Shown here one piece after another: positions 1-63,863 of a stretch of 64,000 nucleotides of DNA. How positions within the stretch are numbered: the stretch's first letter is position 1; every line of letters begins with the position of its first letter. Below the pieces are notes generated by a model, which was not told the DNA's origin, did not search any database, and saw only the letters and a program-made list of their open reading frames with translations. This stretch comes from Scenedesmus sp. ARA3. Its lineage: Eukaryota > Chlorophyta > Chlorophyceae > Sphaeropleales > Scenedesmaceae. Where the stretch lies: positions 1 through 64,000 of the forward strand of contig RWJK01001886.1 of the NCBI GenBank assembly GCA_004335835.1. The letters are read 5' to 3'. The position numbers and the translations under genes were made by a program.

Positions 1-1924
1 CGTTTTGCAATGATTTCACTCCGTGCAGTGGGGCGTATCGACGAGTGAAATTTGAAACGAAATGAAATGAAATGAAAGGAATCGAAACGTGAAATTTGAA
101 ACGGCACACCCCTGGACCAATGCTGTCGGGCGCATTCCATCTATCAAACCGTTGGATTCAAATTTGTACAATGGCCATCCTGTTTGTGCTGGCAGCAAGA
201 TGTGCCATCGGCACACCAAGTGCTTCAGCCCAGTCCTGCAGGGTTGCAAGGGAACTGCCGTAGTACAACAACCACGGCTAAACGAAGAATTTTTTTAATG
301 CGAAACTAGCATATTCTGCCTCTACCGTGCATGTGTCCTGCCAGGCCTGCACCTGCACCTGACATCTGGGGGGCTTCTGCAGTACAACTGTTGCCGCTGC
401 ACAGGTGTGCTGTCCTTTTATGACCATAACATGCACTTAAAAGTCATCCACGACATCATTTACAGGTTCTGTGAGCAGCCAACAGTCATCCACAGCAGCA
501 TGCTGTGGATGCACCAGTCAGGCGCTGTGGACGACTTGAGGATGGGTTGTGGATCAGGCTTGGCCATAGCCTGATCAGGCTGCTGCTGCTGCAGTTGACA
601 GCAGATTTGCTGTCCTAGTGTCACCCGCAGCAACGCTCCACGCAATCAGAAGTATCGTGCAAGGAACTACTACTTTCTCAAGGTGCAAAAGCACTGGCCT
701 GCCCATAGTGGCGAGCTGGGAGGCGGCATTAGCCCCTCATACGTCAAGACCTCCTTGTGCGCAGGCCTTGGTGCTGCATACGGCCTACTAGATCTTCGAA
801 AGACAACACAATTAAGTTGAAGCATCTGCCGGCACGGTGAATGGCTGTTGCAAATATAAAAGTAGGGCGGTGCGAACTTTTGGTCTTCACACCCGCGGTG
901 GGTGACCCACCCATCTGTAACACAGACTGCTGCACACGCCATTGCAACGCTAGTTTTCAAAACACCAAGGTGTAGCCAGCTGCTAGCTGGATAAATCAAG
1001 ATCTGCCCAGCGCACACGCCTGGCACTTGTGGACAGAGCATCCTGCTGCAGCGAAGGCAGGGCTACGTAGCTCGGAGAGAGCGTTCCGCACCCAAGTTAC
1101 GTCAACATAGCCGAGAAGCAGCAAGATGCGGTCATCGCCGTCTGGCACTATAAAGACGAGGAGCGCTAGCCCAAAGTCAGCGAAGGGGCTACTGCTTGCC
1201 GCGCTGTGCATCGCCTGTGCCTGTGCTGCTTCGTATGTGGCTGGACTTCACGCTTCCAGGTGCAAGCTTACTGGTGCGTGGGTGGGCAGCTGGCAAGGAG
1301 GGTTGTCGGTTGAACTCACATGTCAGACATGAGGCCTAGGCATGTGGAAGACATGTGGCAGCATGTGGCACAGCAGAGGCATGACTCACTGCTGAAGAAA
1401 CATGTGCCGGCATGTAGCAGCCCTGGTCCGCAGTACAACCGTCATTTGGTACTGCAAGCAGTGCAGCAAGCTGCTCACTGCTCCACGTTGCAAGCAGCAG
1501 TTGAACCACTGGCAAGAGGCATTGTAAGTACTGCTTCAGTGCTACCCCTCAACCTACTGCTGGGCGCAACAAGGAATACTGTAGAATTGCCACTGCCACT
1601 AGAAAACAATGCAGCAGACTTGCACACCCAGCAGCCCTGCTGCGTAAAGACCAATACAGCAGCAACATGTTTGCATCCATGGATGCGGTGTGGCCGCACC
1701 GCTGTATGTTTGACAATTATCCCACTACACTCCTTGACAAGTAAGCCTCAGCCATCCCATTGCTGCTGCTGCTGCTGCTACTGCTGCCTCTTTCTGCTCC
1801 TGCTGTTGCTGCTGTCAGCCGTCATCCATGGTGCAGCCTCGCCAGCGCACCCACAGCAGCAGCAGCCTGTGCGGCACATTGCGCCAGCTTCACCACCAGC
1901 CATCGCTGCAACCCACCAGCCACC

Positions 1925-37404: not shown

Positions 37405-40400
37405 ATGAGTGCAATGCGCGCAGCCAACACCAGGATCTGCTCTCGTTTCGCCAAGCCATTGGTGGTGCCAGCACCATCTGCACGCCCAAAGCTTTTGAAA
37501 CCACTTGCTCCTCGTGTTGGTGTGCTTGAGTCCCTGTCCATTGACGAGGATGGGGAAATCACCTGGGACGTTGTTCTGCCCAACACAGAAGACACCGATC
37601 GCATCTCATGGCCTTCTGAGAGTGTTCTCGATGGCTATCAGCTGAGGCCAGGGCAGGTGCCAGCTGCGGCACCCACATCAACCCTGCCTACTCGGCCTGG
37701 TGGGCGTTTGGCAGCAAGAATCACGTTTTCTGCAGCTGGGATCCGCATGCAAGGGCCCCATTGGCGGTGGTGGATGCATCAAACGATGCAAGCAGTGCAA
37801 TTGATTGTTGGCAGCATCGGCAGCAGCAGCCTGGTCTGTGCAGCGGCAGCAACAGCAGTAGCACTAGCAGGCCTGCTAGGATGCTCTCAGGTGGCTGTCT
37901 AGTCTCGCCCGGGGAGCACTGGTATCAGCTGACAATCATGAGGGACACAACATGATCGCGCAAAAACTTGCTCTGCAACTTCAGCATATCAACAGCTTGC
38001 CCGCACGCAGCAGCAACTCAAGCTGCTGCACTGCGCTGCTGTTGCTGCTGCTCTGCTGAATAATTGCAGACTCGCTCAAGCGCAGCAACAAGCCAGTGGT
38101 GCTTGTGAGGGACACCAACGCATGGTGCCCCTTCTGCGAGCGGGTGAGCGGGGAAGTTTGCCTGCTGCAGCACACTGTGCAGCAGTTACATGACAAGGGC
38201 CCGTCTGATACGGTATGCTTGCAGCCATGACATGAGTCTGGCTCTAGTGTCACCAGCCCTGCTGCACATGCGCACATGCACATGCTGGCAACCCAACAGG
38301 TGCAGCCGCCGTAAGGGGAAAGCGAGCGCTAGCCGCAGCGTCGCAGCAGTGACAAACCATGCGTATGTCCCTGATACGTTTGCTGTGACTTGGGGCTCTG
38401 CAGGTGTGGCTGGCGCTGGAGGAGAGGGCTGTGCCCTGCCTCAACTATTGCTGCATGTCCATTGACATGCCGGTGCCTGCTTTTGCATATCTGTTTCTTC
38501 CTCCTTTTGTCATCAGGTGTGGCTGGCGCTGGAGGAGAAGGCTGTGCCGTACTATTTCACTGACTGCTATCAGCTGCCGGCCTTGACATGCGCCTCTGCT
38601 TGCTGTCTTGCCGTGTTCAATTAGGTGTGGCTGGCGCTGGAGGAGAAGGCGGTGCCGTACAATGTCACTGATTGCAATCAGTTGGTGGTCTTGACATGCT
38701 TGCTGTCTCTGTTCTGTGTCATCAGGTGTGGCTGGCGCTGGAGGAGAAGGCGGTGCCGTACGACTGCGTGCTCATCGAGCTGTACAACAAGCCCGAGTGG
38801 TACAAGGAGCTGGTGCCCACCAGCCTGGTGCCCGCAGTGGTGAGCTTTGCTTATGATTGAAATGACAGTTATCTGAAATGACAGCAGACAGCAGTGGCAC
38901 ACATTAGTGCTACAAGGAGCTGGTGCCCACCAGCCTGGTGCCCACAATAGTGAGCTTTGCTTATAATGGAAATGACAGTTGTTTGAAATGACAGCAGGCA
39001 GCAGTGGCACACAATAGTGGTACAAGGAGCTGGTGCCCACCAGCCTGGTGCCCACAAATGTGAGCTTTGCTTATAATGGAAATGACAGTTGTTTGAAATG
39101 ACAGCAGGCAGCAGTGGCACACAATAGTGGTACAGGGAGCTGGTGCCCACCAGCCTGGTGCCCGCAGTGGGGAGCTTGCGGATCTCTCTACATGATTTAG
39201 CATGTAATTTGTGATCAGCAGGGCAGAACTGGCAGCTGCCTCATCTACTAGCAGCAGCCAGCAGCGGCACACACGTGGCAGCAGCAGCGTGTGCCCACCG
39301 GCCTGGTGCCCGCGTTGGTGAGTCACTTGCGCTTCACACGAGCAGCAGCAGCTCCGTCGCCTGTACCAGCAGCAGCTGTGGCAGCCAGCAGCGGCACACG
39401 CACAGAGTGTTACAAGGAGCTGGTGCCCACCAGCCTGGTGCCCGCAGTGGTGGCTTTTTAGAGCTGCACCAAAGAATTGCATGTGAACTATTGATCATCA
39501 GGGCATGTAGCAGCTGCGTTGCACGCATGCTCACAGCACGCAGCTGTGGCGCTTCATGTACTTTGCTTGTCGTTGCTCTGCCGCAGTCCTTCAACGAGGA
39601 TGGCGCTGTGGTGTGGGAGTCCAAGGACACTTGTTGCTCTGTTGCTGCTCTGGCTTATAATCCGATAATCGACGATAATCCCACAAGCTTTTTCCGCTTA
39701 TGTTGCCGCAGTCCTTCAGCGAGGACGGCGCTGTGGTGTGGGAGTCCAAGGACATCCTGCTGGCACTGGAGGAGCGCTTCCCACACGCCAACCCGCTGCT
39801 GCCAACAGACGAGGAGGAGAAGCAGAAGGTGTGCGCCAGCAGCAGCAGCAACAGCAGCTGGGGTTGTGCCGACAGTGACAGCAGCAGCAGCAGCGGCGGC
39901 GGCAGGTCAGGTGCCAGCAGGAACAACGGCAGCCGTAGCAGGGGCTTGGCTGGCAGTAACAGCAGCGGCAACAGCAGGAGCTGAGCTGGCAGCGGCAGCA
40001 GAGCAGGCAGTATGCGGGCAGCGGCGGCAGCAGCAGCAGCAGGTTCTGTACTTACCGCGGCAGCAGCACCAGACATATGGGCAGCACCACCAGCAGCAGC
40101 GTCAGGCTGATTCACCCGCACTTGGCCTGTTTCTTTTTGCTTTTTCAGGCGCTGGAGTTCCTGGTTGAGCTGGAGGCGTGTGGTATCGACAAGATTGGCT
40201 ACGCCTTCAACCCTGCTGCCCTGCTGTTGCACCCGCTGAACCAGCTGCACTGCGCCTGTTCACTTTTGCTTGTTCAGGCGCTGGAGTTTCTGGTTGAGCT
40301 GGAGGCTTGCGGCATTGACAAGACTGGCTACGCCTTCATGACAGGCGGCCGCATGATCGGGCGCAGCGCCGGCAGCGCCTTTGACCAGCCACCACCCGAC

Positions 40401-40951
40401 ATGGCTGAACTGGAGGCAGCCTTTGTGAAGGTAGGGCGTTGACTTGTGTGTTTGTTGACAGAATATATGGCTACTTGTTTGCCTGTATTGCGAGCAGCCG
40501 CCTGACATGGCTGAGCTGGAGGTAGCCTTTGTCAAGGTGGGGCTTGACACACCACATACTGTTTTGTTGTTGGATGGTTTGATAGTTTGTTGCTTGCTGT
40601 ATTGCCAGCCGCCGCTTAGCCAGAGCCGCTTACATGGCTCCTGGTTAAAAAGCTGCTAGGTTGTATTGGTGTGTGCGGTTGACAGTATCAATCGTTGTGG
40701 TGTGCGCAGCCTGATAGCTATGATGGACCAGGACGGCCTCGTCACTGTGGCTCTGCGGCACCTGCCGGGGCACAGCTTGCCATAGATTGCTACTGCCGTC
40801 GAAGCATCAGCAATAAAAGGCGTGGTTAACATCTGCTGCTGCTGCTGCTGCGCAGTCCCTGGAGTGGTTTGAGGGCAGTGCGCTGTCGCGCCACGAGGGG
40901 CCGTACCTGCTACTGCTGTTGAATTGCACGTCGAGTCTCGTGGTGGTCACA

Positions 40952-40995
<44 letters not shown>

Positions 40996-43900
40996 GCAGT
41001 CCCTGGAGTGGTTCGAGGGCAGTGCGCTGTCACGCCACGAGGGTCCGTACCTGCTGGGGGCGGAGTTTAGCATGCTTGACATCATGATGATCAGCTCCCT
41101 GGAGCGCATCGGCGCAGGTGGGTGCAGGATGTCATTTTGTCGGTTACTGTGTTACATTGGTGCTATGCTTTATGATACATGGTGCTTTCTCATCAGGCAT
41201 CAGCTGTCACGTCGGTGGCTGCAGGTGCAGGGTTGGGCATGCTGGACAATGTGCTGGTTGTATCTGTTGGGTCAAGTCAAAGCAGATGATATGTGCCGCT
41301 AGACATGCCTGTGTCATCATGGCACATATGAAATGCTTCAACTGCCATCATGCCCTACTGCTGCTGCTGTTGCCGCAGGCCTGCCCAAGTTCCGCAACTT
41401 CAACATCCGCAGCAACCCCGCCTACCCCAACACAGCAGCATGGTTCGCAGCCCTCGCGGGGCGCCCAGCCTACCAGAAAGTCAGCAGCGACGACCAGACC
41501 CTGCAGCTGCTGTTCCAACGCATGATGGGCCTCACCCCGGGCGCTGCAGCAGCAGCAACACGCACGAGCGCTGCAGCAGCTGCTGCGGCTGCTGCTGCTG
41601 CGTTTGCAAAGACGCAGGCGGAGGTGGCGGCTGCTGCTGCGAGTGAGAAGGAGCTGCAGGCGGCTAAGAATGAGGCATACGATGCACTGCAGGTGTGTGA
41701 GGGTTTGGTTCGTTGTTTTTGGGGTATTGTTTACGCTTGACATTTAGTGTGTTTGCTCTCATGTTCGCCACTCACCAGCAAATTGCATTGCTTGCTTTGT
41801 GCCGCACAGTAGCTGCACGCTACACATGGTGGATTCCAATGCTGGTTTTGCCGTGCATTCTAGTAGCAGTTGGCATGCTTCAAGGCAGCACCAGTGTGTG
41901 CCTGCTTGCAGAGCTACATGCTGCTATGTGGGCTTTCTGTTTGAGGCAACTGCTCCTTCCAGTGCTGCTCTAAATACTATGCTGCTGCTTCTGTTGTTGT
42001 TGTGCTGCTGCTGAATCGCTGCAGGCAAGTGCAGGTGATGTTGTGCGTGACATTCTGGCCAAGAGCGGCGTGACGCGCTACCAGGCCAGCCCATACGGTG
42101 AGCTGCTGCTGCTGCTGCTGAAACTGCTGCTGCTGCTGCTGAAACTGCTGCTGCTGCTGCTGCCTGCTGTTGCATCTCTTCTTGCCGTCTCGTGAACGTG
42201 CTGTCATGGCAGCTGCCAGTGCTGCACGCACGCGCGCCATCCAATGACAGCTGCAGCCAGCAGAGAAAATCGTTGTCTCGGACCGCTCGCTCGCTGCTGC
42301 TGCCGCTGCTGCTGCTGCTGCAGGCGCCACCACGCTCAGCGTCAACGGCCACAAGCCTCGCGTGGCGCTGCCAGTGCGCGAGGCTGTTGAGAAGCAGGTG
42401 GTGCGCGTGATGAAGGCGCTGCTGCTGGGGTCAGCGGGCCCCAAGCCAGACACATCCATTGCTGCTGCATTTGGCAGCGTGGCGGCTGCATTCCTGCGCA
42501 ACAGGTGGGGATGGCACTGCCTCGCTGCTGCTGCATCTCTGTGCTGCTGGAGTGCTGCAGTTTCAATGCGCCAGTCATAGTACTGCGCGCGCCCACTGCG
42601 TGGTGATTGTTGTGCATGCATGCAAACTGCTGTCGCGCACACCTTGCGGCACGGGAGGCTGTGGCGGCTGACTGGAGCCTTCGCACTGTGCAGCAAAGTG
42701 CCACCTTTGGCCTCCTCTGCCGTGCCGTCTTGGCACATATACATCTGCATTGGCGTCTGACCGTGCGCCTGCTTCTTTACTGCAAACAATCATCCTGCAG
42801 GCACCAGGACTGTGGGCAGCTGGGTGAGCTGAGCCTGAACAGCCTTCCTGCAAACATCCATAAAATCCTGCTGACATCCATCTTCCTGCTGACAACCAAA
42901 CCCCCTGCAGGCACCAGGACTGTGGGCAGCCATCTGCAGTGCCGTCTGGCCATGCGGCTTCTTCTTCCTCCTTCTGCAAACAGCCATCTGCAATGCCGTC
43001 TGATGGAGCGTCTGCTTCTTTCCTGTAAACAATTATCCTGCAGGCACCAGGACTGTGGGCAGCTGGGAGAGCTGAGCCCGGCAGCCTTCCTGCAATTATC
43101 TCTACAATCCTGCTGATATTCATCTTCCTGCTGACACCCATCCTGCAGGCACCCGGACTGTGGGCAGCTGGGCAAGCTGAGCCTGAACAGCCTTCCTGCA
43201 AATAGCAATGAAACCCTGCTGATATTCATCTTCCTGCAACCAATTAATCTGCAGGCACCAGGACTGTGGGCAGCTGGGCGAGCTCAGCCCAGCAGCAGCA
43301 GAGCAGCTGAGCATCGCGTGCACGCAGGCGCTGACACAGTCATATGCAGATGGTGTTGAGGCGCTTGTGTTCACGCCACCAGAGCAGGGCAGTGCTGCCG
43401 CAGCTGCATCTGCGGAGGCAGCAGCCAAGATCAAGTCAAACAAGGACGCGATTGTGGATGACATCTTGCAGAAGAGCGGCATCGCGCGGCGCGGCAGGCG
43501 CTCTGGCTCGACATACGGTGAGCTGCAACCAGAGCAGTGTGCAGGAATTGTGAAGCGCTACACACAATGTGATGACAGGTGCACGGGTGATGCTTGTTGG
43601 GTAGTCAGCGCTCTGTATGGCTGTGCATTGGTGGTGCATTGCTCCGGCAGGACATATGTGAGCCCATTGTGCAGCTGCAACATGCGCAAGGTGAGGTACT
43701 GTCCTCGGCGTTCTGCCCCGTCCAGTCAACACCAATGTTCTCACTGTGCTGCATTGTGACTGCGTTGTACCTAGCTGCGTGGTACCTGGCTGTGCTGCTC
43801 CTGCTGCTGCTGCGCAGTGTCCATCAACGGCAACAAGTCCCAGGTCAGCCCCGCAGTGCGCAACGCAGTCACCTTCCACCTGGACCGGCTCACAACGCTG

Positions 43901-44071
43901 CTGCTCACAGGCAGTGCAGGGCCGCGCGTGACAGAGCCAGAGGCAGCTGCTGTTGGCGCTGCTGCGCTTGCGTTCTTCCGCAACCGCGCGTCGGCGCCGC
44001 GTGACATGAGTGCTGCGGCCACGGTGCAGTTCCGGGCGGCGTGCGACGCTGTGCTTGCTGACACCTACTGA
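37405..44071 (+). CDS. Glutathione-transferase-like protein with duplicated C-terminal module
   Basis: Eleven exons (37405-37699, 38070-38143, 38726-38839, 39712-39828, 40278-40430, 41000-41117, 41379-41692, 42025-42097, 42324-42504, 43255-43517, 43818-44071), all phases agreeing, give 651 residues. Residues 1 to about 110 are rich in Arg, Ala and Ser at the start, suggesting a plastid transit peptide. The thioredoxin-fold half carries VRDTNAWCPFCERVWLALEE (a CPFC active site as in dehydroascorbate-reductase or omega-like GSTs), LVPTSLVPAV and the ESKD glutathione-binding turn. The helical half has GPYLLGAEFSMLDIMMISSL. After an Ala-rich linker come two related modules of unknown family, each with DIL-KSG near its start, then SVNG/SING, then LLLGSAGP / LLLTGSAGP and AFLRNR / AFFRNR. 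Probable role is glutathione-dependent reduction or conjugation; substrate unknown. Eight exon-edge arrays lie in its introns and 3' end. Confidence 0.85.
38395..38765 (+). repeat. Four-copy acceptor array (GST exon 3, VWLALEE)
   Basis: Exon starts reading GTGTGGCTGGCGCTGGAGGA occur at 38404, 38517, 38625 and 38726, each preceded by AG. Each of the first three is followed by a few similar bases and a shared TTGACATGC spacer. Only the fourth copy continues as the full exon. Spacings are 113, 108 and 101. Confidence 0.95.
38801..39460 (+). repeat. Donor array of about six copies (GST exon 3 end, LVPTSLVPA)
   Basis: The exon end TACAAGGAGCTGGTGCCCAC and its donor side are repeated at 38801 (the true exon end, donor at 38840), 38911, 39021 and 39131, exactly 110 bases apart. 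A diverged copy lies near 39285 and another at 39411. The intronic filler (AATGACAG, GCAGTGGCACACA) is repeated too. The downstream copies are not in an open exon. Confidence 0.95.
39575..39760 (+). repeat. Two-copy acceptor array (GST exon 4)
   Basis: TCCTTCAACGAGGATGGCGC at 39587 and TCCTTCAGCGAGGACGGCGC at 39712, both after GCCGCAG, share the next 40 or so bases (through GAGTCCAAGGACA). The second continues as the true exon. Confidence 0.92.
40125..40340 (+). repeat. Two-copy acceptor array (GST exon 5)
   Basis: GCGCTGGAGTTCCTGGTTGA at 40149 and GCGCTGGAGTTTCTGGTTGA at 40278 share about 63 bases of exon and about 24 bases of upstream intron (CCTGTT...TTTTGCTT). The second is the true exon start. 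Spacing is 129. Confidence 0.92.
40390..40540 (+). repeat. Two-copy donor array (GST exon 5 end)
   Basis: The exon end encoding MAELEAAFVK, with donor gtaggg at 40431, is repeated about 105 bases downstream as ATGGCTGAGCTGGAGGTAGC ... AAG followed by gtgggg (about 40497-40541). The second copy is intronic. Confidence 0.88.
40827..41060 (+). repeat. Two-copy acceptor array with CTG tract (GST exon 6)
   Basis: TCCCTGGAGTGGTTTGAGGG at 40856 and TCCCTGGAGTGGTTCGAGGG at 41000 share about 58 exon bases. Each is preceded by an ACATCTGCTGCTG... run and CAG. The tract before the true (second) copy has expanded (about 40951-40993). Spacing is 144. Confidence 0.92.
42789..43300 (+). repeat. Five-copy acceptor array (GST exon 10, HQDCGQLGEL)
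   Basis: CTGCAG followed by GCACCAGGACTGTGGGCAGC occurs with exon starts at 42801, 42911, 43044, 43149 (one base different) and 43255. Spacings are 110, 133, 105 and 106. Filler such as GAACAGCCTTCCTGCAA and TCATCTTCCTGC is shared. Only the fifth copy leads into the true exon. Confidence 0.95.
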
Positions 44072-44535
44072 GCAGGGATCTGCTGAGCGGATGTCTACTT
44101 CTATCTGAGCTGCTTGATGGTTGCAGTCCACGGCGGCATGTGCCGCTGTGCTTGCTGACATACATTGAGCAAGGATCTGCTGAGTGGACAAGTACCTAGC
44201 TGCTTGGTGGTTGCAGTTCCGCGCGGCGTGTGACGTTGTGCTTGCTGACATCTACTGAGCAGGGATCTGCTGGGCGGATGTCTACTTTATATCTGAGCCG
44301 CTTGATGGTTGCAGTCCACGGCGGCATGTCCCGCTGTGCTTGCTGACATCTACTGAGCAAGGATCTGCTGAGTGGACAAGTACCGAGCTGCTTGATGGTT
44401 GCAGTCCACGGCGGCATGTGCCGCTGTGCTTGCTGACATCTACTGAGCAGGGATCTGCTGAGCAGACAAGTACCGAGCTGCTTGGTGGTTGCAGTTCCGG
44501 GCAGCGTGTGACGCTGTGCTTGCTGACATCTACTG
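44026..44535 (+). repeat. Six-copy array of the last exon's end and stop codon
   Basis: The end of the GST-like coding sequence and its 3' flank recur six times. GTGCTTGCTGACA lies at 44051 (true), 44148, 44238, 44336, 44426 and 44516, spaced 90-98 bases. Each unit includes a TACTGAGCA-like stop region and GGATCTGCTGAG. The later copies lie after the stop, each preceded by GGTTGCAGT, which resembles a splice acceptor. Confidence 0.93.
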
Positions 44536-46533
44536 AGCAGCTTGGCAGCAGTGAGCAGCCGTGCTGGCTTGCTGGCTTGTTCAGGCTTAGCTTGCTGCTG
44601 TGGTGTAGCGTGTGTGTATGTGGGGCCATACTGTGATGTGTTGTGCTTGCAGGCAATCACGTTGGCAGCTGGTACTGTCACTGCCGTGCGTGAATCGCTG
44701 TGTGTGTGTGGTGCTGACAATGTGGAGCTTGCAGGGGGCTGTCCATGATGGGTGGTTGGTGGCGCATGTTGCTGGGGAAGTGCAGCATTCTTCTGCCATG
44801 TGGCGTGTGTGCAATCACTTCTGCTAGCCCAGGCAGGCATGCAGGTTGTTGTGCAGCTTGGTAAGGCGCTGTGCTATGTGCACTTGAGCAGCTGATCTCG
44901 TTGTGTATTGCAAGCACGCGTGTATGCATGTGTGGAGAATTGGCGTGGTAGCCAGTGTGCACAACTTGCTGCTGCTGTCTGCGCAACATTGTGCACGGTG
45001 TGCTTTGCAGTGGCAGGAGTGTAGATACCATGCATGATGTTGGAGGCCTGTTTTGTGTGTATGGATGGGCCTTCTGTTGTGTGTGGGTGCTGATCTGCCT
45101 GTGAAATCCTCGCTGTGGTTTTCTCTCAAACGGCTGCTAGCATCGGCATCTGTAGTGATTTTGCTGTATGCATTCCAATGCTGCGCCTGCTCCATTCTGC
45201 TCGCGCATGCGGTATTACTAGTTGCTGTATTTTGAGCAGCCGCCCGCCACAGTTCTCAGGCACCATTTATTGGTTGGCGGCAACAGCAATAACATGTTCA
45301 TGCGTACCATCAAGGTTGCGGGTGTCAGCAGCATCATGCATGATGCCACTGGCTTAGGCTTGCTTGAGCATTCTGAAGTTGCTGCGTTGAGCAATTGTTC
45401 AGGGCCTTGATATTTGTAGAAGAGGGTATTTTGTTTTGTTCTGCACTGGTGTAACTAGCATTGTGATGAATTCTCAGTCACATGTAGCGAGATCTGTCCT
45501 CCGGCGGGAAGGGAGGCAAACTTTTGGCAGCAGTCGACTGGAAAAGCACAGCACGTGCAGGACATCACGCTGTCAAGCACTGTTTAAGTACCAGTGGTTC
45601 TGGTGCTGCTTGCAACGCCACATGAGCAAGTCAACGCCGAAGTGCCCACTCCACATCAGCAGCAATTCAGACTGCTGAAAATCTGGGGCCCCCTGAGGAG
45701 CAAAGCTTGACAGACTGTTGGTGAGCAGTGTGTCATAGACTCTTGATGCTCTAGAAGTTAACCAATGCTAGAACCCGGAGATGTCCACGACAGCTCATCA
45801 ATCGGGCCCAACCAAGTGGGAGGTGGCCACCAGTACTGCCTCCTGGAGCAAAAGTCCAGTGTTGCCAGTGCTAACAACTTTGGTCTAAGATTCGTTGTGC
45901 ACATGACGGTGGCAATCGAATGAACGCAAGAATGGAATCATGTAATGTTCTTCTCGATAGCAGATTGCCAAGCTTTTGCTGAACTCGCGAGGTGTTCCGT
46001 ACAGGAGCAGAGACCTACTGAAGAAGTTGTGTCACCAGGTGTTGCTCAGGTATTGAGCCATCTCGTACTATATTAAGGTGCGCAGCCATACCCTACAAGC
46101 ATGCAACGCCGTTAATTGTGGCAGTCGTATGAAGCAGCAGGAGAACAGCGACCCAGCTTTCTCCGAGTGCCAAAGTCTGGCCTGCGCATGCTGTCGGGCA
46201 GCGTCAGCAGACACCAGCTGTTCGACTTGATATCTTAAGCCAGTACTTGGGTGTTGCGTGACGCTACTATCACTACTGTAGCACGGGCAGCTTGCACGGA
46301 AGCACCCAGGAACAAGCATGTGCGAGTGGTTGAGGTGATTGTGCCTTGCAGCGTTCAATCCACCGCTGTGATGTTCATTAAATCGATTCACAGGCTTGAA
46401 GTCACGGTGCAGCCATGCGCATCAGCAGCTGCAGCAACAGCAGCAGCAAGCCACGGTGATGCCATCACATGTACATGCACATGCTGTTCCTGATTATGAG
46501 CTTCTTTACTTCCGCAGGTGCAGGTGCTAGGTG
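44536..46533. other. Intergenic region, no confident gene
   Basis: No exon chain was found. A plus-strand open stretch at 45270-45410 has ordinary codon use (reads NMFMRTIKVAGVSSIMHDAT before a stop) but no recognisable family or partner exons. The stretch 45780-46060 differs in composition and may be an old insertion; nothing specific is assignable. Confidence 0.4.
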
Positions 46534-51035: not shown

Positions 51036-54000
51036 TCACTTGCCGCACGCGCTCAGCGGCAGGTTCCTGTAACTTGCAAAGTCCACAATGCCGTGGTAGA
51101 CACTGCTGCAGCTGCAGCCAGCGGTCACGTTGAACTCAACTGTGGAGACACCATCGATCACGGTGCTGTTGTAGCCTTCTGGCAGTCCTGGCTGGCCAGA
51201 TTTGGCCCTGACGCTGACCCAGCGGGGGCTGCCGGGGCATGTGGGTGAAGATGTAGGTGCTGCGCAGGACACAAAGTAGCGCCGCTCAGACGACCTGCAG
51301 CAAAAAGCGCGGCCACAAAGAGTGTGGTGAGTTTGCACCACACTAGACACAAATGAGCGCCGCTCAGACGACCTGCAGCAGGCACAGTCAGGGAGTTCAG
51401 CAACAGGTCAGCCAAGGTCAGGTAGAGGGTGGAGCCCAGAGGCGCCACCCCTGGCCACACACACCTTCTTAGCCTTAACTTACCCAGGAGCTGCAGAGCT
51501 GCCTGGGTAGTCACTCACCCACTCACTCACTCACTCAGCCAGGGAGTTCAACGAATGCAAGAGCAGATGTGTGCAAACTGTGCAAGGAGTGCAGCTGTGC
51601 TCTTGCAGTCCACCGCAGCTGCAGGTGCCTGCACCTGACAGTGGTGCATTATAAGGTGCATGGCGACGCATGGCAAAAGCGTAGCAAACCATGGCACAAG
51701 CATGGCAGGTTTGTCGTCACCCGTTGCTACTTGCTGCCAACTCACCTAAATGCAGCGGGTGTAGCAATTTTGAAGTGCACCTTGTTGGCAGCAGCACCGT
51801 CTGGGCAGGACACATTCACGCTGCCAACCTCAACAGCATCGCTGCAGCTGTTGCTTTTCTGAGCAAGGAACAGCTTGCCGGAGCCCGGGCCTTGGTTGGA
51901 GTAGCCGGAGGCAGTAACAGCCTTTGCGCACTGCTCCCCCGTGGCGCCTGGTCTTGAGTGCTGAAAGCAGGTGGGCTTGCTGCTGCTGCTGCTGCTGCTG
52001 CTGCTGTCAGCCTTTGCGTAGCTGCTGCCGGTTGTGCAGCAGAGCACCGACACGTTGGCCTTAGCAGAGCCTGCGAGGGGGCAGGGGTTGAACACAGATG
52101 ACGCTCAATATACACACACGCTTGGAGCATCAGCAACGCCCCTCGTTCTGTTAACAGTTACTGACTGCTAACCTGCATCCGTGGGTGGAGGATGTTGACA
52201 AAGCACATTTGAGGCGGTGACAGCACATGTGATTGAGCATGAGCTACAGCTGGTGCTTACACAGCTGTTTGAAATGCCAAGCTTTTGAAGATCAGGTAAG
52301 GGCTCAAAGACAGATTGTGATGCAGCGTCGCAGGTGCACATGTTGATGTGAACATCTGTACTGCGGCTTCTGGCACACTGAGCAAGCGTGATGCGTCATG
52401 AAGCATCTGCTATCGCTGCTGCTGCTGCTGCGGCGGCGGCTGCTGAAGACCCCGTTGGCCATAAGCACAGCTGGCAGGGTGCATGTGTCAGGCACCTGAT
52501 CACCTGTGGTGTTGTTGAGATGCGACCCAGTTACAAAAAGCTGGAACAAGCAACCATGGACTTACCTTGCGCTGTCCCGCAGCCCTTCGGGCTTGCTGTC
52601 ATGTTGAGCTGCACAGGCACAGCTGGTGTTGTTGGGATGTTCACTTGGTTACAAAGCGCTGGACCGTGAACTCACCTTGTATGTTTCCGCAGCCCTCCGG
52701 GCTTGCTGTCATGTTGAGCTCCACAGGCACCGGCGTGGTGTTGGTTGAGGTGTTATTTTATTACAATGCGCTGGATCAAGCCACCATGAACTCACCTTGT
52801 ATGTTTCCGCATCCCTCAGGGCTTGCTGTCATGTTGAGCTCCACAGGCACTGGCACGCCTGGCGCAAACGCCCCGCTGCACGTCACAATGACAATGCCGT
52901 TTGCTTTGCTGGGATCTGCATCAGCAGCAGCAGCAGCAGCAGCAGGAACAGCGGCACAGACAATGAAAAGGACAGCTGAGCCCGGACTGGTGTGCATACT
53001 GTCAGAGCTGTGAACACTAGCTGTGTGTAGCTCTTTGATAGCAGCAGTGCAGCTGTGAAGGTAGTGCCAAATTATCCCACTACATGCAAACTGAGGTGTC
53101 AGCATGCAAAGCCATGCACTGCAATCGACGGTGCAACAGCAATTCAACCCGTGAGCATGGCAGCTGCATTCCTCCTTGCAAGCAGCTTGTGCATAACCAC
53201 ACCGCCTGCCCCAGCAGAGACGCTCACGGTATGTGACCTTTGTGGTACAGGCTGGGCCGACTTGTGCAGCAACCTCAAAGTCCTGCCCAATCAGCATCCC
53301 ATTCACTTTGTATCTGGACACTGCCACAGCAGGCTTCCCGCCACACCCCGGCTGCGGCTGCCTGCCCAGGCGCACTGTGATTGTGGGGCGCGGCGCAGTC
53401 GTGATGTTGGTGGTTGAGGCAGTTATCGACTGCGCGCCGCTGCAAGTGAAGTTGGCAGTGAGCTGCAGGCGCAGAGCAGGCAGCAGCAGCAGCAACAGCA
53501 ACAGCAACAGACTCGTGCATTAGCACATCGGCAGCTCGCAGCTCAACGCACTGGCAGCACATAAGTAACATACGTAGATTCAGTGACTTCTGGCGTGCAG
53601 CAATGCACATAATGCAACCGCGGCCGCCGCAAGAGTTGGACCTCAAGCTGCTCTGGCAGCGGCGTGCTGTTCTTATTTTTTATTTTTTGAAATAACTTTT
53701 GTTAGTTGAGCAGGCTAAGCAGCTACGGAAGGCTCACCAGTAGCTCAGCTGTTGCTGCCTCAGTGAAGGCGCTTCCATCGTCCTTCTGGCAGGTGACAGT
53801 CACAACGGTGCCTGTGGCGTTGCCAGGGAGCACAGCTGCGGCAGCAAAGTCAGGCATTCAGCACAGCAGCAGCATTGGCAGAAGCAGAGTCAGATGTGCA
53901 TGTGGCGTATGCACACTGATGCCTGTGGCGTTGCCAGGGAGCACCNNNNNNNNNNNNNNNNNNNNNNNNNNNNNNNNNNNNNNNNNNNNNNNNNNNNNNN

Positions 54001-55627
54001 NNNNNNNNNNNNNNNNNNNNNNNNNNNNNNNNNNNNNNNNNNNNNNNNNNNNNNNNNNNNNNNNNNNNNNNNNNNNNNNNNNNNNNNNNNNNNNNNNNNN
54101 NNNNNNNNNNNNNNAACAAAGTCAGGCATTCAGCACACCAGCGGCATTGGCAGGAGCAGAGTCAGATGTGCATGTGGCGTGTGCACACTGACGCCTGTGG
54201 TGTTGCCTGGGAGCACAGCTGCCGCAACAAAGGCAGGCATTCAGCACAGCAGCGGCATCGGCACAAGCAGAGTCAGATGAGCAGGTGACAGTTACAACGG
54301 TGCCTGTGGCGTTGCCTAGGAGCAGCGCTGCGGCAGCAAGAGTGGCAGACATCACAGCAGCGGCATTGGCACAAGCAGAGTCAGATGTGCATGTGGCGTG
54401 TGCACAACGGTGCCTGTGGCGTTGCCAGGGAGCAGCGCTGCGGCAACAACGTCAGGCATTCAGCACAGCAGCGGCATTGGCACAAGCAGTCAGGTTTGCA
54501 TGTTGTACATGTGTGTGCACTTTGGTGCCAGTGGCGTTGCCTGGGTGCACAGCTGCGGCAGCCACACCAGACATAACAGCACAACAGCAGCAGCACTAGG
54601 AGAGCTCTGAAAAGGAGCAGCAACAAAAGCAGATCCTCCAGAAATGGCAGCAGCAACGTCAGGCTGCTGCTTAAAGGCTGCCAGCACGCTTCAGCCTGCT
54701 GCCTGGAACAGCAGCTGTCCCTTGCCATGCAATAATGATTGACGAGATAAACTCGCACTTTCATCTTTCAGGATCACAGGCGCTAATGCTGCACAATGTG
54801 GCGCCACACTCGCTTTTGATTATTTACACCTCGTTGGCTGTGTAATGTTGGACCTGGCATACTTGACATCATGCTCACCTGGCGTGACACTGCATGCAGT
54901 GGTGTTGCTGCCAGTGATCCTTGCAGCAAGAATAGAGTTGCCCTCAGCGGAGCTGCAAGCAACACCACCGACAAGTGCAGTCGGCACGGCCAGTCAAAGG
55001 GGTCATGTGAATGGGCATGAGCATGTGCCTGCTGCACACGCACATGCTGTCAACAGCTGCAGTCCAAGCTTCAAATTTGTCGTGTCACTGATGTGCCTGC
55101 GCGGCGGCTGCTGCTGCTGCAAAGCTGAAAGTCACATTGTGGGCAGCCCCGCAATGCACAGCGCAGGCTGTGCCAGGGGCTGCCTGCAGCACACATGCCT
55201 TGCTTTGTCCACTGTAACAGGCCCCGTCCTGACAGCATTCACAGTGCTTGGCATGAACCACATGCTAGAGATGCCCTGCTGATCTGATCTGGTATGACCT
55301 GATCTGATCTGATCTGATCTCATCTGATCTGATCTGACGTGATCTGATCTGATTTGACTTGATCTGGTCTCTGCGCTGAATGTTACGCTGTGCATTCAGC
55401 GCAACATGGGCTTGAGCAAGGCAGGCTGTGCTACAGCCTGAATCTAGCTCTGCACAATGCAGCCAGGCCTTACCTGGTAGCAATGTATTTGAAAGTGGCA
55501 TACAGCGTGTTCACTCCACCGCAGACTGTCACCTTGGACTTGCTGCTGCTGTGCTGTGCGCTGATGATGCCGGCGCTGCTGTTGGCTGGTGTGTTTGGCA
55601 TCAGCTGCACCAGGCAGCTGTCTGTGA

Positions 55628-55686
<59 letters not shown>

Positions 55687-57649
55687 AGCGATCTGAAGCA
55701 GGCCAGAACAGGTGAGAGTCAGCTGCCGTTGGGGTGTGCGGCTGCAGTATGTGCAGCCTACAAACAGTTCTGCCAGGCGCATTGTGAATACAAGGCAACC
55801 AGGCGAGTGCTGAAGTTACAAGTTCTACAGCATCCCCGGCTTACTCTGGCGTGTGTAAATCAAGGAAGAGGGTTAGTGAGCCGAGAATCACGTCACTGTA
55901 ATGTCGTGACATAACCCCCCACCACTGGATGTGCACACAGAGCAAAATCCGTGAATGTAATGCAGTGACAGTGTGCCTCACCTCTGCCCGCAGAGGCCCC
56001 CAAGGGCCGGCCAGTGCTGTCACTCACAGCCAGTGACATCTGCAAAAAACACCAGCCGCAACAGTTGTTGGTTTGTCGTGCACAGTCTGTGCGGGTGATG
56101 ATGCAAAATAAGCATTAGCAGGCAGGGGGTTGCTCAGCATGGTCCCAGCATGGATGCTGTGGTGTGATGCATGAGTGTGTGCATGGTTGGTGTGCCCTAC
56201 GCTGACCTTGATCCTGTTCACATCTCAGCAGCAGTGTGGTTCTGGGTTGCGCAGTGCAACGCGTAGTAGGATAGGAATGAGTTGTTGCGATAGAGCTCTC
56301 AGGCCCACACAAGGCCTGTCCTTGTCCTTCTCTATCTACGCACAAAAGAGCATAGGCTCAAGCAGGTTTGCCTGCTTCTGATGCGTAGGACTTGTAACTT
56401 GTAACTAGCGCAAAGCATGGTGTGATCTGGAACGCTTGCCTGCGAGATGCAGAACTCGGACACCAGCTTTTCTCTCGCCAAGGCCTGGCCTAGCGTGATC
56501 AGATAGCTCATAGCTGAGGGTGTGTTTATGGCAGCATCCAGCACAGCCTCTGCTGTCTTAGCCACAAAGCCCTGGCCAAGCAACACCTGCAGGGCAGCCA
56601 CAGCAGCGGTCCAGTGATGTTTAGGGACATGATGTTTCAGATATGAGGTGTGCTGGTTTGTGTTTCCAGCAGGTCAAAGTCAATGCCCCTGCCAACTGAC
56701 AGCTGCATGGCACAACATAGCACAGCTGTTATTTGATGTTTTCAAGCAGACCGCGACAGCTGCGTGGCAGGCACAACATAGAGCCGGTCATTTGATGTGA
56801 TCAAGCAGACCGCTACAGCTGTCTGGCAGGCTCAACATAGCACAGCGGTTCTTTGATGTGATTAAGCAGACAGCTGCATGTAGGCACAGCAGCAGGTCAG
56901 CACAGGTGTCAAGGAGTGTGCTTGGCGCATGAGGGTAGGTGCCCAGCGGTAGCCATTCCGCACAAAATGCAATGCAACATGCAAGTATGCAATGCAGAAA
57001 GTGCAAAAGATGCACCTGAGCCACGCCTAAGCCGCCGCAGCCCACTGTGCTATGTTGTGCCTGCCATGCAGCCGTTGCTGTCTGCTTGATCACATCATAT
57101 AACCGCTGTGCTATGTTGTGCCTGCCATGCCGCGGCAGCCCACAACACCCAGGCTTCACCTGCACACCAACCACCACCGCGTCCATGCCGCCATGATGCA
57201 GTGCAAGCTGCCCGCTGCTGCCGCTGCTGCTGCCTCTGTGCCTCACCTGCACGCCCACCACCACCTCATCTTTGCCGCCATGCTCCACCAGCCACCACTC
57301 CGCTCATGTTCCGTCACCAGTAGATGCAATAACACAATTGCAGCACAAAACCTCCCTCACCTGCACGCCCACCACAACCTCATCCATGCCGCCATGCTCC
57401 ACCAGCCACCACTCCGCTTATGTTCCGTCGCCAGAAGATGTGACAGAACGATTGTAGCACACTCAGCACCCTCTCTCACCTGTACGCCCACCCTCACCCC
57501 ATCCATGCCCCCGTGCTCCACCAGCCTCTGTGAGGCCTGCCACAGCCCACAACACCCAGGCGTCCTGCACACCAACCACCACCGCGTCCATGCCGCCATG
57601 ATGCAGTGCGAGCTGCAAGCTGCTGCTGCTGCCGCTGCTGCCGCTGCTG

Positions 57650-57702
<53 letters not shown>

Positions 57703-58968
57703 GCCTCACCTGCAAGCCCACCACTACCTCATCCATACCCCCGTGTTCCACCAGCCACCACTTTGCCAATATCCTTTGCCAGAAGATGCGACAAAACAAA
57801 TGTCGCACACTCAACACCCTCTCTCACCTGCACGCCCACCACCACCTCATCCATGCCCCCGTGCTCCACCAGCCACCACTCCGCTCATGTTCCGTTGCCA
57901 GTAGATGCAACATAACGATTGAAGCACAAAACCTCTCTCACCTGCACGCCCACCACCACCTCATCCATGCCGCCATGCTCCACCAGCCGCTGCGAGGCGG
58001 CACGCCGCCTTTGCGTGTTGGAGGTCGACTGGCTGATCCAGGCATCTTGCACTGAGATGTTGAGCACGCACAGGGCAGGGTTGTACAGAGCGACTGCATG
58101 CATAGGCACAGCCGACAGGGCAACAGGCAACAACAATGAACACAATGAAAAGGCAACAGTTCCTTCAGACTGATGTGACGCATGGAGTGACATCCGCCGC
58201 TGTTTGTGCTACCTGAGTGTGATAATCAGAGGATGGAAAACAGTCAAGTGCAGCCACTGACTTGATGTGGATCTAGATGATACCTGGATAAAGTCTTACG
58301 CTGCCTGCTGTACTTGACTGTGCAACAGACCAGCTGCAGCCCGCATCTTGGGGCAGCAAGCAGCGCGAGCTCAATGCTGCTGCTTCTGCTGCTGCTGCCG
58401 GTGTGTGCATGCAGTCCTTCACTATGCTGCTGCCCCACTCACAGTCTTTCTGCCGCTGCATCAGCACGTTGTTGGCCATGGTCAGTGCCGCCCCGCTGTG
58501 GATGTCTTCAATCAGGGAGATCATGTTATGGCCGAGACCTGTTGCGCGCACATGGAGGTGGCAGGCAGCAGCATGCAAGATAACTGTCGACACAGAGTAG
58601 CACATCACCATCAGCTGTTGAGGATCTTGTGTGCACAAGTGCCGAGACAGAAGGCATGTGGAAAGGTGGAAGGCATGCATTGCATGCCACTATGAGCCTG
58701 ACATTGGCTGCTGACTAGCTGGCTGCCGCCTCCTGCTGCGTGAAGTATGGCTCCCTGCCCAAATGAGCCCGTGCTTGCAAAATGTACCGCCGCCAAATAT
58801 CTGTCATACTCAACGTAACAACAGGTGGTTCTTCATGCAACGTAATGCAATGTGCGGCTGCCTGCAACAGGGCCAGATGTCATGCAGCACACAGTATGCA
58901 TGTCAGTGGCGTGTGTAGCATGCAGAGCACCCACCTTGGACATTGAAGTAGTAGATCTTCGATGCTGC

Positions 58969-61656: not shown

Positions 61657-63863
61657 CGTTGGCATGGGTGAGCCCATGGAGATGCTGACTGAATCCTAAT
61701 TCAGATGTGCAAGGTAAGGCGCCAGGCAACTGTTACAATGCCGGGCCAGGTTCAAGGGCGCACGCCAATGCAGATGGCTCCAGGTTTCCAATGTGACAGA
61801 TGCTGCTGCTGCTGCTGCTGCTGCCGCGGTCGCTCTGCCGCTCACCACTGTGTGTTTGCCGGCATGCCATCTGTAGATGGGCCAGGGCTGTTTGAACAAG
61901 GTCCATCCGGCACTGCACGCAGCAAGCAGGCAATCCAAAGAATAGCCCGCAGCAGAACAAAGAGACAGAGTAAGCCGCAGTAAAACAAAGAGACAGCACG
62001 CACAAAAACAACATCCTGCCAGCCTGCATGACATGCAAGCTTGCAATGCATAGCGCTACCTGCATGCAGCAAGTGCACAGCCGGCAGCGGCAGCCAGCAC
62101 CACTGCAGTGCCTGTTGCTCCAGCTGCGCAGCACATGCCAAGCAGCACATGCCATGCAGCACATGCCATGCAGCACATGCCATGCAGCACATGCCGGCCA
62201 GCGGGCCTGCATCCGTCTCCGTCTATTAATCGCACCCGCAGCCGCCGATGTTGAATGCCATTGCTGCTGCTGCCGTTGCGTCACATGGTGCTGTACCTAT
62301 GAGGCTGCAGGTGATGCCGCTGCCACTGCCGCTGCCACTCTGGCTGCTGCGACTGCTGCTGCTGCTGCTGCTGCCCCAGACAACGACACCCTACAACCGC
62401 ACCTATGAGGCTGCAGGTGACGCCAGAGCTGGCTGGTGCCTGCCAGCCTGCTGCTGCTGCTGCTGCTGCTGCCACAAACAACAATGACATCCTGTGGCCG
62501 CACCTATGAGGCTGCAGGTGACACCAGTGCCAGTTGGTGCCTGCCAGCCTTGCTGGGTGCAGGTCGACTCCCAGCTGCCTGCCTGGCGGTAGCCGGGCGC
62601 ACACTGTGTGGTGCAGGTGGAGCCCACCGCAGCGTTGCTGCTGCCGCATGACCAGGCCGCGTTATCAGGCAGAGGGGAGCTGCCGGGCACTCCAGTGCAG
62701 CCTGCAGATCACATGGCAGCAGCCAGCATGTCAGTTGCAGCCGCTTTGGGAGCCATGCGCACTGGCTTCACCAGCTAGCTCGGTTTGCTCAGCTTGCAAC
62801 TGCTGCTGGTGTGGGCGATCTTCCGTGCAGATCTCAGCCGCATGTCTCATGCAGTACACGTGCAGCAGCATCACGCAGGGTGAGTTGCAGCCACCTCACC
62901 TGGCCGTTTGCATGCCAGCGAAGTTGCTGTAGCAGCCCACACGTCGTTGCCTTCATAAAATGAACAAGTGGCTGAAAAGCTCCCCGATGCAGTGAAGCCA
63001 GGCAGGCAGGCAGCCTGACACTCAGTGTTAGAATTCGATTCCTGAACTGCAGGGTCGCAGTTCCCGCTTGCAACCCACTGTGCATTGGTGGGCGGCGCCG
63101 GCAGGTCGTTGTTAGCACAGCCGGTGGTCCCCAGCAGCGAGCGAGCCATGTCCCCAGTGAGCTCTGCCCCTGCAGGCCCAGCAGGACCGGCAGGCCCTGC
63201 AGCGCTGACTGGCCCTTCAGAGGTTTTAGGCGCTGCAGAGGGTTTAGGCCCTGCAGAGCTGGCTACATGTACATGCGCAGCGCTAACAGCGCCCAGGGGT
63301 GCTCCTGCAGGCGCAGCAGGCTGTGCCGCATGCACATGCATATGGCCCGATGCTGCTGATGGCCCAGCCGGGCCTGATTCGGCTGCAGCTGCGTGGGCTG
63401 CGCCTGCTGCTGCATGCGCACGCAAAGCAGGCAGCGGCACAGGTATACAATTGCAGGCCGGCAGAGGCAGCAAGAGACGCATGGGGTGTGTCAGCGGTGA
63501 GGTGGGGCACCACCTGCAGCAGGCAGACATGCTGGCAGCTGCAGTAATCTTGCTAATCCATCACCATCGAATGCTGATAGAGGTATGGAGGAGTTGCAAT
63601 GGGTGCTGCTGGTGGTTGCTGTGTCACTCTGGAAGCAGCAGTTAATGGGTGGGCAGTAAGAAGGATATGATCAGGCGGCCCCCGTGCATGGATTGACTGC
63701 TTTGTCCGTGAAGCAATTGTAACTGTGTTCGCCAGAACAGGCAGCGATCGGGAATGTCTGGGTGCGTTGGTCGTACGCTAGCGCGGGCGATTAATCGTGG
63801 CAGCTTACCTCGATGAGAGAAGATCACCACGCAGATCACAACGCAAATCCATTTATTCTCCAT
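51036..63863 (-). CDS. Secreted modular protein: CCP/sushi-like modules plus Cys/Asn-rich modules
   Basis: The minus-strand start at 63863 encodes MENKWICVVICVVIFSHR, a short signal peptide. Phase-linked exons: 63863-63809, 63409-62900, 62701-62504, 61607-61462, 61058-60903, 60478-60434, 59887-59747, 59324-59286, 58964-58935, 58538-58443, 58051-57942, 56586-56440, 56039-55982, 55621-55474; then 54957-54879, 53835-53738, 53462-53238, about 52920-52796, 52070-51746 and 51294-51036 (stop). Joins are unsettled at 62504-61607, 55474-54957 and 53238-52920. After a Pro/Ala/Gly-rich stretch come about five Cys-rich modules of CCP style (CxAxCxPGY then W-x-C, for example CQAACLPGF, CTTQCAPGY, CQAACAPGY, CTASCEPGY). 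A helical middle follows, then repeated modules with VTVTC, VNVSC and N-x-T/S sequons. Length is at least about 1000 residues. Probably an extracellular-matrix or cell-wall protein. It may prove to be two genes. Seven exon-edge arrays. Confidence 0.6.
51279..51380 (-). repeat. Two-copy acceptor array (last exon of the secreted-protein gene)
   Basis: On the minus strand CTGCAG followed by GTCGTCTGAGCGGCGCT occurs with starts near 51373 and at 51294, 78-79 bases apart. The second continues as the final exon; the first is a decoy. Confidence 0.85.
52555..52860 (-). repeat. Three-copy donor array (secreted-protein gene)
   Basis: The exon end encoding ELNMTASPEGCGNIQ and its donor (gtgag at 52795-52791) recurs with donors near 52675 and 52565, spaced about 120 and 110 bases. 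Shared exon sequence includes GGAGCTCAACATGACAGCAA. The true copy is the upstream one in transcription order. Confidence 0.92.
53805..54560 (-). repeat. Acceptor array, at least six copies, interrupted by gap (secreted-protein gene)
   Basis: Units of about 110 bases carry GCAG followed by CTGTGCTCCCTGGCAACGCC on the minus strand. The plus-strand landmark GCCTGTGGCG or a close variant is at 53810, 53921, 54193, 54302, 54412 and 54527. The lowest copy joins the true exon (53835-53738, VLPGNATGTVVTVTC). The N gap 53946-54114 falls inside the array, so the copy number is unknown. Confidence 0.9.
53946..54114. other. Assembly gap (169 N)
   Basis: A run of unknown bases inside a tandem array. The true length and unit count are unresolved. 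Confidence 1.
55279..55370. repeat. Degenerate GATCT pentamer microsatellite
   Basis: About 17 imperfect copies of GATCT/TGATC lie in an intron of the secreted-protein gene. The motif is nearly self-complementary (GATC core), unlike the CAG repeats that dominate the rest of the window. Confidence 0.9.
56695..57130. repeat. Direct and inverted 60-base repeats inside an intron
   Basis: Three direct units of about 60 bases (landmark CAACATAG near 56713, 56774 and 56833; 56695-56880) are matched by an inverted two-unit block at 57043-57130 (landmark CTATGTTGTGCCTGCCATGC). The arms could pair into a long hairpin in the intron between exons 58051-57942 and 56586-56440. Confidence 0.85.
57140..57995 (-). 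repeat. Donor array of about eight copies (secreted-protein gene, LVEHGGMDEVVVGVQ)
   Basis: The end of exon 58051-57942 and its donor are repeated downstream in transcription order. Donor-site landmarks on the plus strand (CTCAC followed by CTGCACGCCCACC or close variants) lie at 57937 (true), 57823, 57705, 57475, 57356, 57242 and 57155; a further copy near 57560 lacks the donor. Spacings are mostly 114-119. The array runs through an intronic CTG tract (57649-57700). Confidence 0.93.
59825..60150 (-). repeat. Three-copy acceptor array (secreted-protein gene, NPKPQLDPDALWSC)
   Basis: On the minus strand CCAACCCCAAGCCCCAGCTA after an AG occurs three times (plus-strand landmark GCTGGGGCTTGGGGTTG at 60120, 59996 and 59861). 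The last in transcription order is the true exon start (59887). A separate 21-base doublet, AAAGCAGGACCACAGTGCATC, lies at 60072-60113. Confidence 0.9.
60300..60445 (-). repeat. Two-copy donor array (secreted-protein gene)
   Basis: The exon end encoding TCTPA with donor gtgagctggcagcagcatg at 60433 is repeated 117 bases downstream in transcription order (donor near 60316). The second copy has the same flank. Confidence 0.85.
61207..61262. repeat. Short tandem repeat, about 18-19 bases, three copies
   Basis: CAACATCCAAATGGAAAGA and two close variants, in an intron of the secreted-protein gene. Confidence 0.85.
61611..61653. repeat. CAG/CTG run next to an acceptor
   Basis: A pure tract immediately upstream (minus strand) of the acceptor of exon 61607-61462. 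Similar tracts precede exon 61058 (61063-61130), exon 59324 (59338-59393), exon 58964 (58968-59001) and exon 55621 (about 55629-55685). Confidence 0.9.
62131..62200. repeat. 14-base tandem repeat, five copies
   Basis: GCACATGCCATGCA units with one or two changes, no spacers, lying between exons of the secreted-protein gene. Confidence 0.9.
62285..62535 (-). repeat. Three-copy donor array (secreted-protein gene, TGVTCSLI)
   Basis: The exon end GTCACCTGCAGCCTCATAG with donor gtgcgg (exon end 62504) is repeated with CCTATGAGGCTGCAGGTGA-type landmarks near 62402 and 62296, about 107 bases apart. The flanking CTG run and CTGGTGCCTGCCAGCCT are shared between the first two. Confidence 0.9.

Follow-up and report, generated by a model that had tools for sequence, protein, structure and literature searches.

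The lengthening of introns is usually ascribed to transposons or small insertions. Tandem genomic duplication accompanied by intron gain is said to have been treated by Hellsten in 2011 and by Gao and Lynch in 2009. Here we describe arrays of short tandem duplications that span exon-intron junctions in the green alga Scenedesmus sp. ARA3, both in a GST-domain gene lying within the first 64,000 nucleotides of contig RWJK01001886.1 (assembly GCA_004335835.1; this whole stretch is hereafter called the window) and in further genes of this alga. In one of the nearest systems, as outlined in PMC3443670, tandem genomic duplication creates a new intron inside an exon from a duplicated AGGT; there, as in our arrays, an exon-bearing segment is duplicated in tandem and splicing renders it harmless, whereas here existing junctions are copied, existing introns lengthen, and a signature of intron gain is seen at 1 of 244 predicted introns (below). 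A survey of Chlamydomonas and Volvox that considered units of 1–50 bases is summarized as finding tandem repeats enriched near intron ends (PMC3887541); those repeats also lie near the ends of green-algal introns, but the units described here are about 118 bases long, carry an exon edge, and so fall outside the surveyed range. Break repair in which Pol alpha-primase performs fill-in yields small tandem duplications, with induced overhangs of about 43 bases (PMC8355091); these resemble the present ones in being short and tandem, but differ in that the portions of that paper describing them make no link to exons. Such fill-in repair at staggered breaks would be a candidate mechanism here. Finally, introners, as characterized in the relevant part of PMC9860276, resemble our arrays in producing many intron changes in one genome, but they are dispersed copies of an element, and in the stretches that we searched ours are local. 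Among the open-licence papers searched, no listed title or abstract concerned arrays that straddle junctions in this way.

The arrays of the GST-domain gene (Table 1) were checked by self-comparison of window positions 37900-44700, by reading of the sequence and with Tandem Repeats Finder (TRF). A first-pass annotation of the window had claimed that exon edges are multiplied in place in eight arrays of this gene, and all eight were found, with self-match E-values of 1e-5 to 1e-117; some of the listed copy positions are inexact by 1–2 bases. That annotation had also put every unit on an exon-intron border, which is correct for seven arrays at splice junctions but not for the eighth, which sits on the border between coding sequence (CDS) and 3' untranslated region (3'UTR). 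Its observation that a single copy joins the complete exon is borne out: this copy is the last in the acceptor arrays and the first in the donor arrays. With each array represented by the single copy that adjoins the complete exon, the spliced product was 546 residues long, contained GST_N and GST_C domains, and was 99% identical to the Tetradesmus obliquus UniRef entry P0001 at 100% query coverage; P0001 has each exon product once, despite the multiple array copies in the DNA. We take the gene to be one of T. obliquus, and the few residue differences between the two suggest that P0001 belongs to another strain. A relative, P0002, whose name looks transcript-derived, is 72% identical over 97% of the query and, in an alignment read by eye, is free of inserted copies.

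Table 1. Positions of the GST-domain gene, its eight arrays, and further arrays in the window.
Feature	Position	Copies, unit and spacing	Strand	Evidence
GST-domain gene	37500..44072	shown from 37500; continues upstream of the part read	+	P0001 residues read from sequence
Acceptor array x4	38404..38761	copy starts 38404/38517/38625/38726, the last real; each has the end of the intron and the first ~36 bases of the exon; spacing 113, 108, 101	+	self-comparison, sequence, P0001
Donor array x6	38796..39462	copy ends 38839/38949/39059/39169/~39317/39449, the first real (exon end 38839); each has ~40 bases of exon and the start of the intron; first four copies 110 apart, later ones more loosely spaced	+	self-comparison, TRF, sequence
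Acceptor array x2	39579..39754	decoy 39587, real 39712; offset 125; 51-base repeat at 96%	+	self-comparison, sequence
Acceptor array x2	40106..40338	decoy 40149, real 40278; offset 129	+	self-comparison, sequence
Donor array x2	40387..40543	exon end at 40430 in the real copy and 40536 in the decoy; offset 106	+	self-comparison, sequence
Acceptor array x2	40833..41055	decoy 40856, real 41000; offset 144	+	self-comparison, sequence
Acceptor array x5	42733..43296	decoys 42801/42911/43044/43149, real 43255; spacing 105-133	+	self-comparison, TRF, sequence
Stop-codon/3'UTR array x6	44019..44546	copies begin near 44025, 44122, 44212, 44310, 44400, 44490; spacing ~90-98 (TRF periods 90 and 188); no splice junction	+	self-comparison, TRF, event scan
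Acceptor array x2, another predicted gene	51260..51387	offset 78	-	repeat scan
Donor array	52564..52861	unit ~120	-	TRF, repeat scan
Acceptor array	53780..54566	six visible copies; unit ~110; assembly gap (N) inside	-	TRF, repeat scan
Two donor arrays	57152..58001	units 114 and 118	-	TRF, repeat scan
Repeat pair at predicted exon edge	62380..62539	offset 101	-	TRF, repeat scan

Junction-spanning arrays are not peculiar to the GST gene; similar arrays are present in other genes of this genome (87 Mb in 1567 contigs). We scanned the window together with 166 kb from 14 other contigs, 230 kb in all or about 0.26% of the genome, using gene models predicted from the DNA by a simple gene finder trained on this same sample. 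An ungapped scan with low-complexity masking (offsets 25–600, at least 33 matches in 40) detected 58 local repeat events; nine of the 15 sequences have events. A predicted junction is in or no more than 6 bases from the copy in 39 of the 58, and 2000 rotations of the junction map gave 23.2 +/- 3.7 with a maximum of 35. Four events were dropped before classing by whole extent (a coding repeat at L013 3784-5005 and three with units below 60 bases), and the 54 that were kept fall into 39 junction, 4 other coding border, 6 intron, 2 exon and 3 intergenic events, where random units of the same lengths give fractions of.249,.035,.239,.203 and.274, respectively. Both ways of counting junction events happen to give 39, with three events differing each way. 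The gene finder merged 40856-41117, so that the GST array there is classed as exon-only, though P0001 shows a junction. Outside the window there are 35 events (27 junction, 3 border, 3 intron, 1 exon, 1 intergenic), and the part of the window outside the GST gene has 11 (6 junction, 3 intron, 2 intergenic).

A Pfam scan of seven predicted proteins or pieces from array loci gave matches for six (Kazal, BCNT, ALO, Myb, UbiA and ArsA-type ATPase) and none for the seventh. The predicted BCNT-domain gene at L008 4563-9322 has six repeat events, one of them a three-copy acceptor array, in comparison with eight in the GST gene. In the C1404 sample (L018, L016 and L019 joined) a repeat at 22739-23160 lies in a predicted exon and has offsets of 120, 123, 244 and 255, the first two being multiples of three.

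The units are rather uniform in length and the events are unevenly distributed. The unit, taken as the smallest offset of at least 60, has a median of 118.5 bases (quartiles 103 and 135), and 46 of 54 units are within 75–144. Non-junction events can also be near the typical unit, as at 60288 (117), 59829 (125) and L012 5866 (135); C1404 19162 has atypical offsets of 50 and 100. Among 44 bins of 5 kb, which hold 52 of the 54 events, 23 are event-free and 11 have at least two events, giving a dispersion of 2.45 that was reached in none of 20000 random draws. Hot and cold bins are alike in exon GC (.634 vs.628) and differ in introns per bin (7.0 vs 5.6) and intron share (49% vs 30%). The 42 hot-bin events comprise 32 junction, 4 border, 4 intron, 2 exon and no intergenic events, against random-unit fractions in the same bins of.286,.040,.339,.131 and.204. 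Window positions 10039-32101, which contain two long, intron-rich genes predicted on the minus strand, have no repeat events in 22 kb, in strong contrast with the region to their right. A 41-base minisatellite at 49195-49331 lies outside predicted genes.

The explanation that we favour, and consider reasonably probable, is that tandem duplications of about 120 bases recur, with a preference for exon-containing DNA, and that splicing or a stop codon hides the survivors. Local tandem duplication would recur in genes with a unit mostly of 90–145 bases, would prefer DNA that includes exon sequence, and would strike some regions far more than others. Selection would remove most units wholly within exons. 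A unit straddling a junction would survive because splicing would use the copy continuous with the remaining exon and the other would turn into intron; in a last exon, a duplicate lying after the first stop codon would be tolerated likewise. Each event would convert a piece of exon to intron, lengthen the intron by one unit and leave a decoy splice site; the decoys would be spliced out unused and drift afterwards, and certain arrays would expand by further duplication. At L008 1417-1860 three decoys are nearly identical to one another and clearly further from the presumed real exon copy, which indicates recent growth among decoys.

The annotation had offered two explanations, a duplication mechanism targeted to splice junctions or selection that leaves duplicates standing only where splicing can hide them, and these are supported in part. 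If tolerance were the whole story, duplications of about 120 bases would be random and the junction excess would be produced entirely by a filter, with exon copies harmful and intron-only copies fading faster. Such a filter seems to act on the exon-only class (2 of 54 events, against 20% of random units, the L013 coding repeat having been dropped beforehand), and the exon part of the unit is compatible with random placement. On the other hand, intron-only (6 of 54) and intergenic (3 of 54) events are scarce though they would be equally hidden. We simulated the filter by making random duplications and removing exon-only ones; both copies then diverged, the real exon at one quarter the neutral rate, and similar detection was applied, at three indel rates and in two regions. 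Junction events were 31–40% and border events 4–6% of those detected, or 36–45% together (35.5% in a first version); the observed values among non-exon events are 43 of 52 (83%) overall and, for hot bins alone, 36 of 40. Binomial tests gave p values of 3e-10 (43/52 against 0.40) and 3e-9 (36/40 against 0.45), of which we trust the direction and not the figure, since the events are clustered and the gene models predicted. Thus tolerance contributes but is insufficient alone, a bias in the process itself is needed, and we regard the filter by itself as an unlikely explanation.

Such a bias might reside in machinery that recognises the junction itself (a paused polymerase, an R-loop or a positioned nucleosome), with breakpoints at a set distance from it. 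The junction excess is what this predicts, and the exon parts of the 20 curated pairs all measure 17–67 bases, with intron parts shorter than simulated. The exon part nevertheless has a median of 40 bases against 44 simulated, a distribution not significantly different from random placement (Kolmogorov-Smirnov (KS) p 0.087, Mann-Whitney p 0.35), and duplications also occur at the stop array and at other coding borders (4 of 54 events, where a fraction of.035 is expected). Because the exon part looks randomly placed and one array sits on a stop-codon border, the bias appears to be associated with exons and not anchored on splice signals; judging from the four border events, exon content would be the factor common to junction and coding-border events. 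The splice site as such is probably not the target of duplication, and we consider machinery of this kind doubtful.

The decoy copies themselves drift nearly neutrally. Outside the GST gene, decoy and real exon copies differ at 155 of 1271 sites, 69 at third, 31 at first and 55 at second codon positions (34 pair rows, not all independent and six of them from the 57 kb array), and the third-position share of 44.5% is close to the ~47% that we estimate for a free decoy opposite a constrained exon. Coding constraint on the decoys is therefore unsupported. In two-copy pairs exon halves are less diverged than intron halves, which at first seemed strong evidence for constraint or conversion of the exon halves, but the divergence of the intron halves fits neutral decay at indel/substitution ratios of 0.3 and 0.6 (Fisher p 0.40 and 0.89), though not at 0.1. 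The intron halves in multi-copy arrays are alignable if many gaps are allowed; those of two GST donor decoys are identical. AG or GT is kept in 28 of 30 correctly placed decoys, and the splice-site score of the real copy is above that of the decoy in 18 of 31 pairs and below it in 9, so that decoys are plausible competing splice sites.

These properties bear on whether gene conversion or selection maintains the likeness of decoy exon halves to the real exon, so that junction copies remain detectable and intron-only copies disappear, with decoys perhaps serving alternative splicing. The retained AG and GT dinucleotides would be expected in that case, as would sharply bounded repeats of 96–98% identity with dissimilar flanks and an excess of units divisible by three (28 of 54, p 0.004 but seen post hoc; 10 of 19 curated pairs, p 0.065). 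The near-neutral codon positions of the mismatches and the neutral fit of the intron halves at 0.3 and 0.6 argue against it, and 8 of 19 stretches from decoy to real copy lack stops, in comparison with 45–58% of random intron stretches of 60–90 bases. We consider this improbable. Tandem duplicate or mutually exclusive exons were also considered and rejected, as a single exon edge is copied in the pairs that we laid out and the mismatches extend beyond third positions.

The copies stand head to tail at one place and repeat one unit, as in a minisatellite or tandem duplication. The whole unit is plainly repeated at L008 1417-1860 (116) and L008 4623-4867 (102), and in some two-copy pairs the exon-edge portion alone of the unit is recognisable. 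Template switching during intron gain or reverse-transcript repair, which the annotation had suggested as a route, finds no support: the copies include intron sequence, so a spliced cDNA would not have been the template. We also compared, with an offset equal to intron length and at least 24 matches in 40, the upstream exon end with the intron end and the intron start with the downstream exon start; the first comparison was positive for 1 of 244 predicted introns, which lies in the 57 kb donor array, and the second for 0 of 244 (null fractions 0.0012 and 0.0006). Telomere-like words, considered as filler in the spacers, have no clear excess in introns generally, spacers not having been counted separately. 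CTG repeats precede predicted acceptors in the 230 kb sample (consensus CTGCTGCTGCAG).

An assembly artefact, in which divergent haplotypes or collapsed repeats were joined serially, might be thought of, as there is an assembly gap within one array (53780-54566) and the identical intron halves of the two GST donor decoys are an exception to the argument from divergence. Arrays reach six copies, however, the events are spread over nine of 15 sequences, and the alignable intron halves of two-copy pairs match in about two thirds of columns, too little for alleles; an artefact is thus very improbable. Insertion of a mobile element or introner that left a long target-site duplication is scarcely credible, for although some pairs are laid out as direct repeat, spacer and direct repeat, a search of the genome (simple repeats and common words skipped) with five array stretches returned self-matches only for four of them (including the GST acceptor x5 and stop arrays) and one additional 44-base match for the fifth, which within the limits of that search gives no sign of a dispersed element, and the spacers of 6 of 19 pairs show a relation (p<0.05) to the adjoining intron flank, as expected from duplication of a whole unit.

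Several observations weigh against the exon-favouring duplication that we prefer. The window was picked for having arrays, the border class consists of just 4 events, and the clustering of events makes p values that assume independence too small. Against 11 curated starts and 11 curated ends of exons in the GST gene, the gene finder was exact for 7 and 5, respectively; its misses include merging of copies, decoys called as exons and slight inaccuracies of the curated end list, and P0001 may itself be a gene prediction. When classing is by the repeat in the more exonic copy alone, a stricter criterion, the 54 events become 31 junction, 10 intron, 7 exon, 4 intergenic and 2 border events (random 60-base windows:.121,.309,.264,.287 and.018). 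The intron part of the unit in the 20 curated pairs is 15.5 bases against 33 simulated (p 0.018, KS p 0.069), and the divergence of intron halves exceeds the neutral value at an indel/substitution ratio of 0.1 (Fisher p 0.004). Third positions account for 9 of the 11 mismatches in those three GST acceptor arrays that have two copies, more than drift suggests though in a small set, and the flanks of the sharply bounded pairs (L008 2503/2638, L008 8123/8216 and window 39579/39704) differ abruptly.

It is conceivable, and we put it forward tentatively, that the arrays record a distinct mutational process acting on exon edges in steps of about 120 bases, which would turn exon edges into intron, make introns grow stepwise, and have left perhaps 18,000 recognisable events genome-wide, many with near-intact splice sites; this number is a rough scaling to 87 Mb of the 35 events found in the 166 kb outside the window. 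The arrays would then offer a testable route of intron growth, apparently ongoing in steps of about 120 bases at existing junctions, in which each exon-edge copy beside its living copy is a datable fossil. If this is true, the spliceosome of this organism must bypass many near-intact decoy sites, which would be natural experiments on how it ignores a good site, and intron growth, the choice among near-identical splice sites and the cause of fixed-length duplication would all be testable in one culturable alga.

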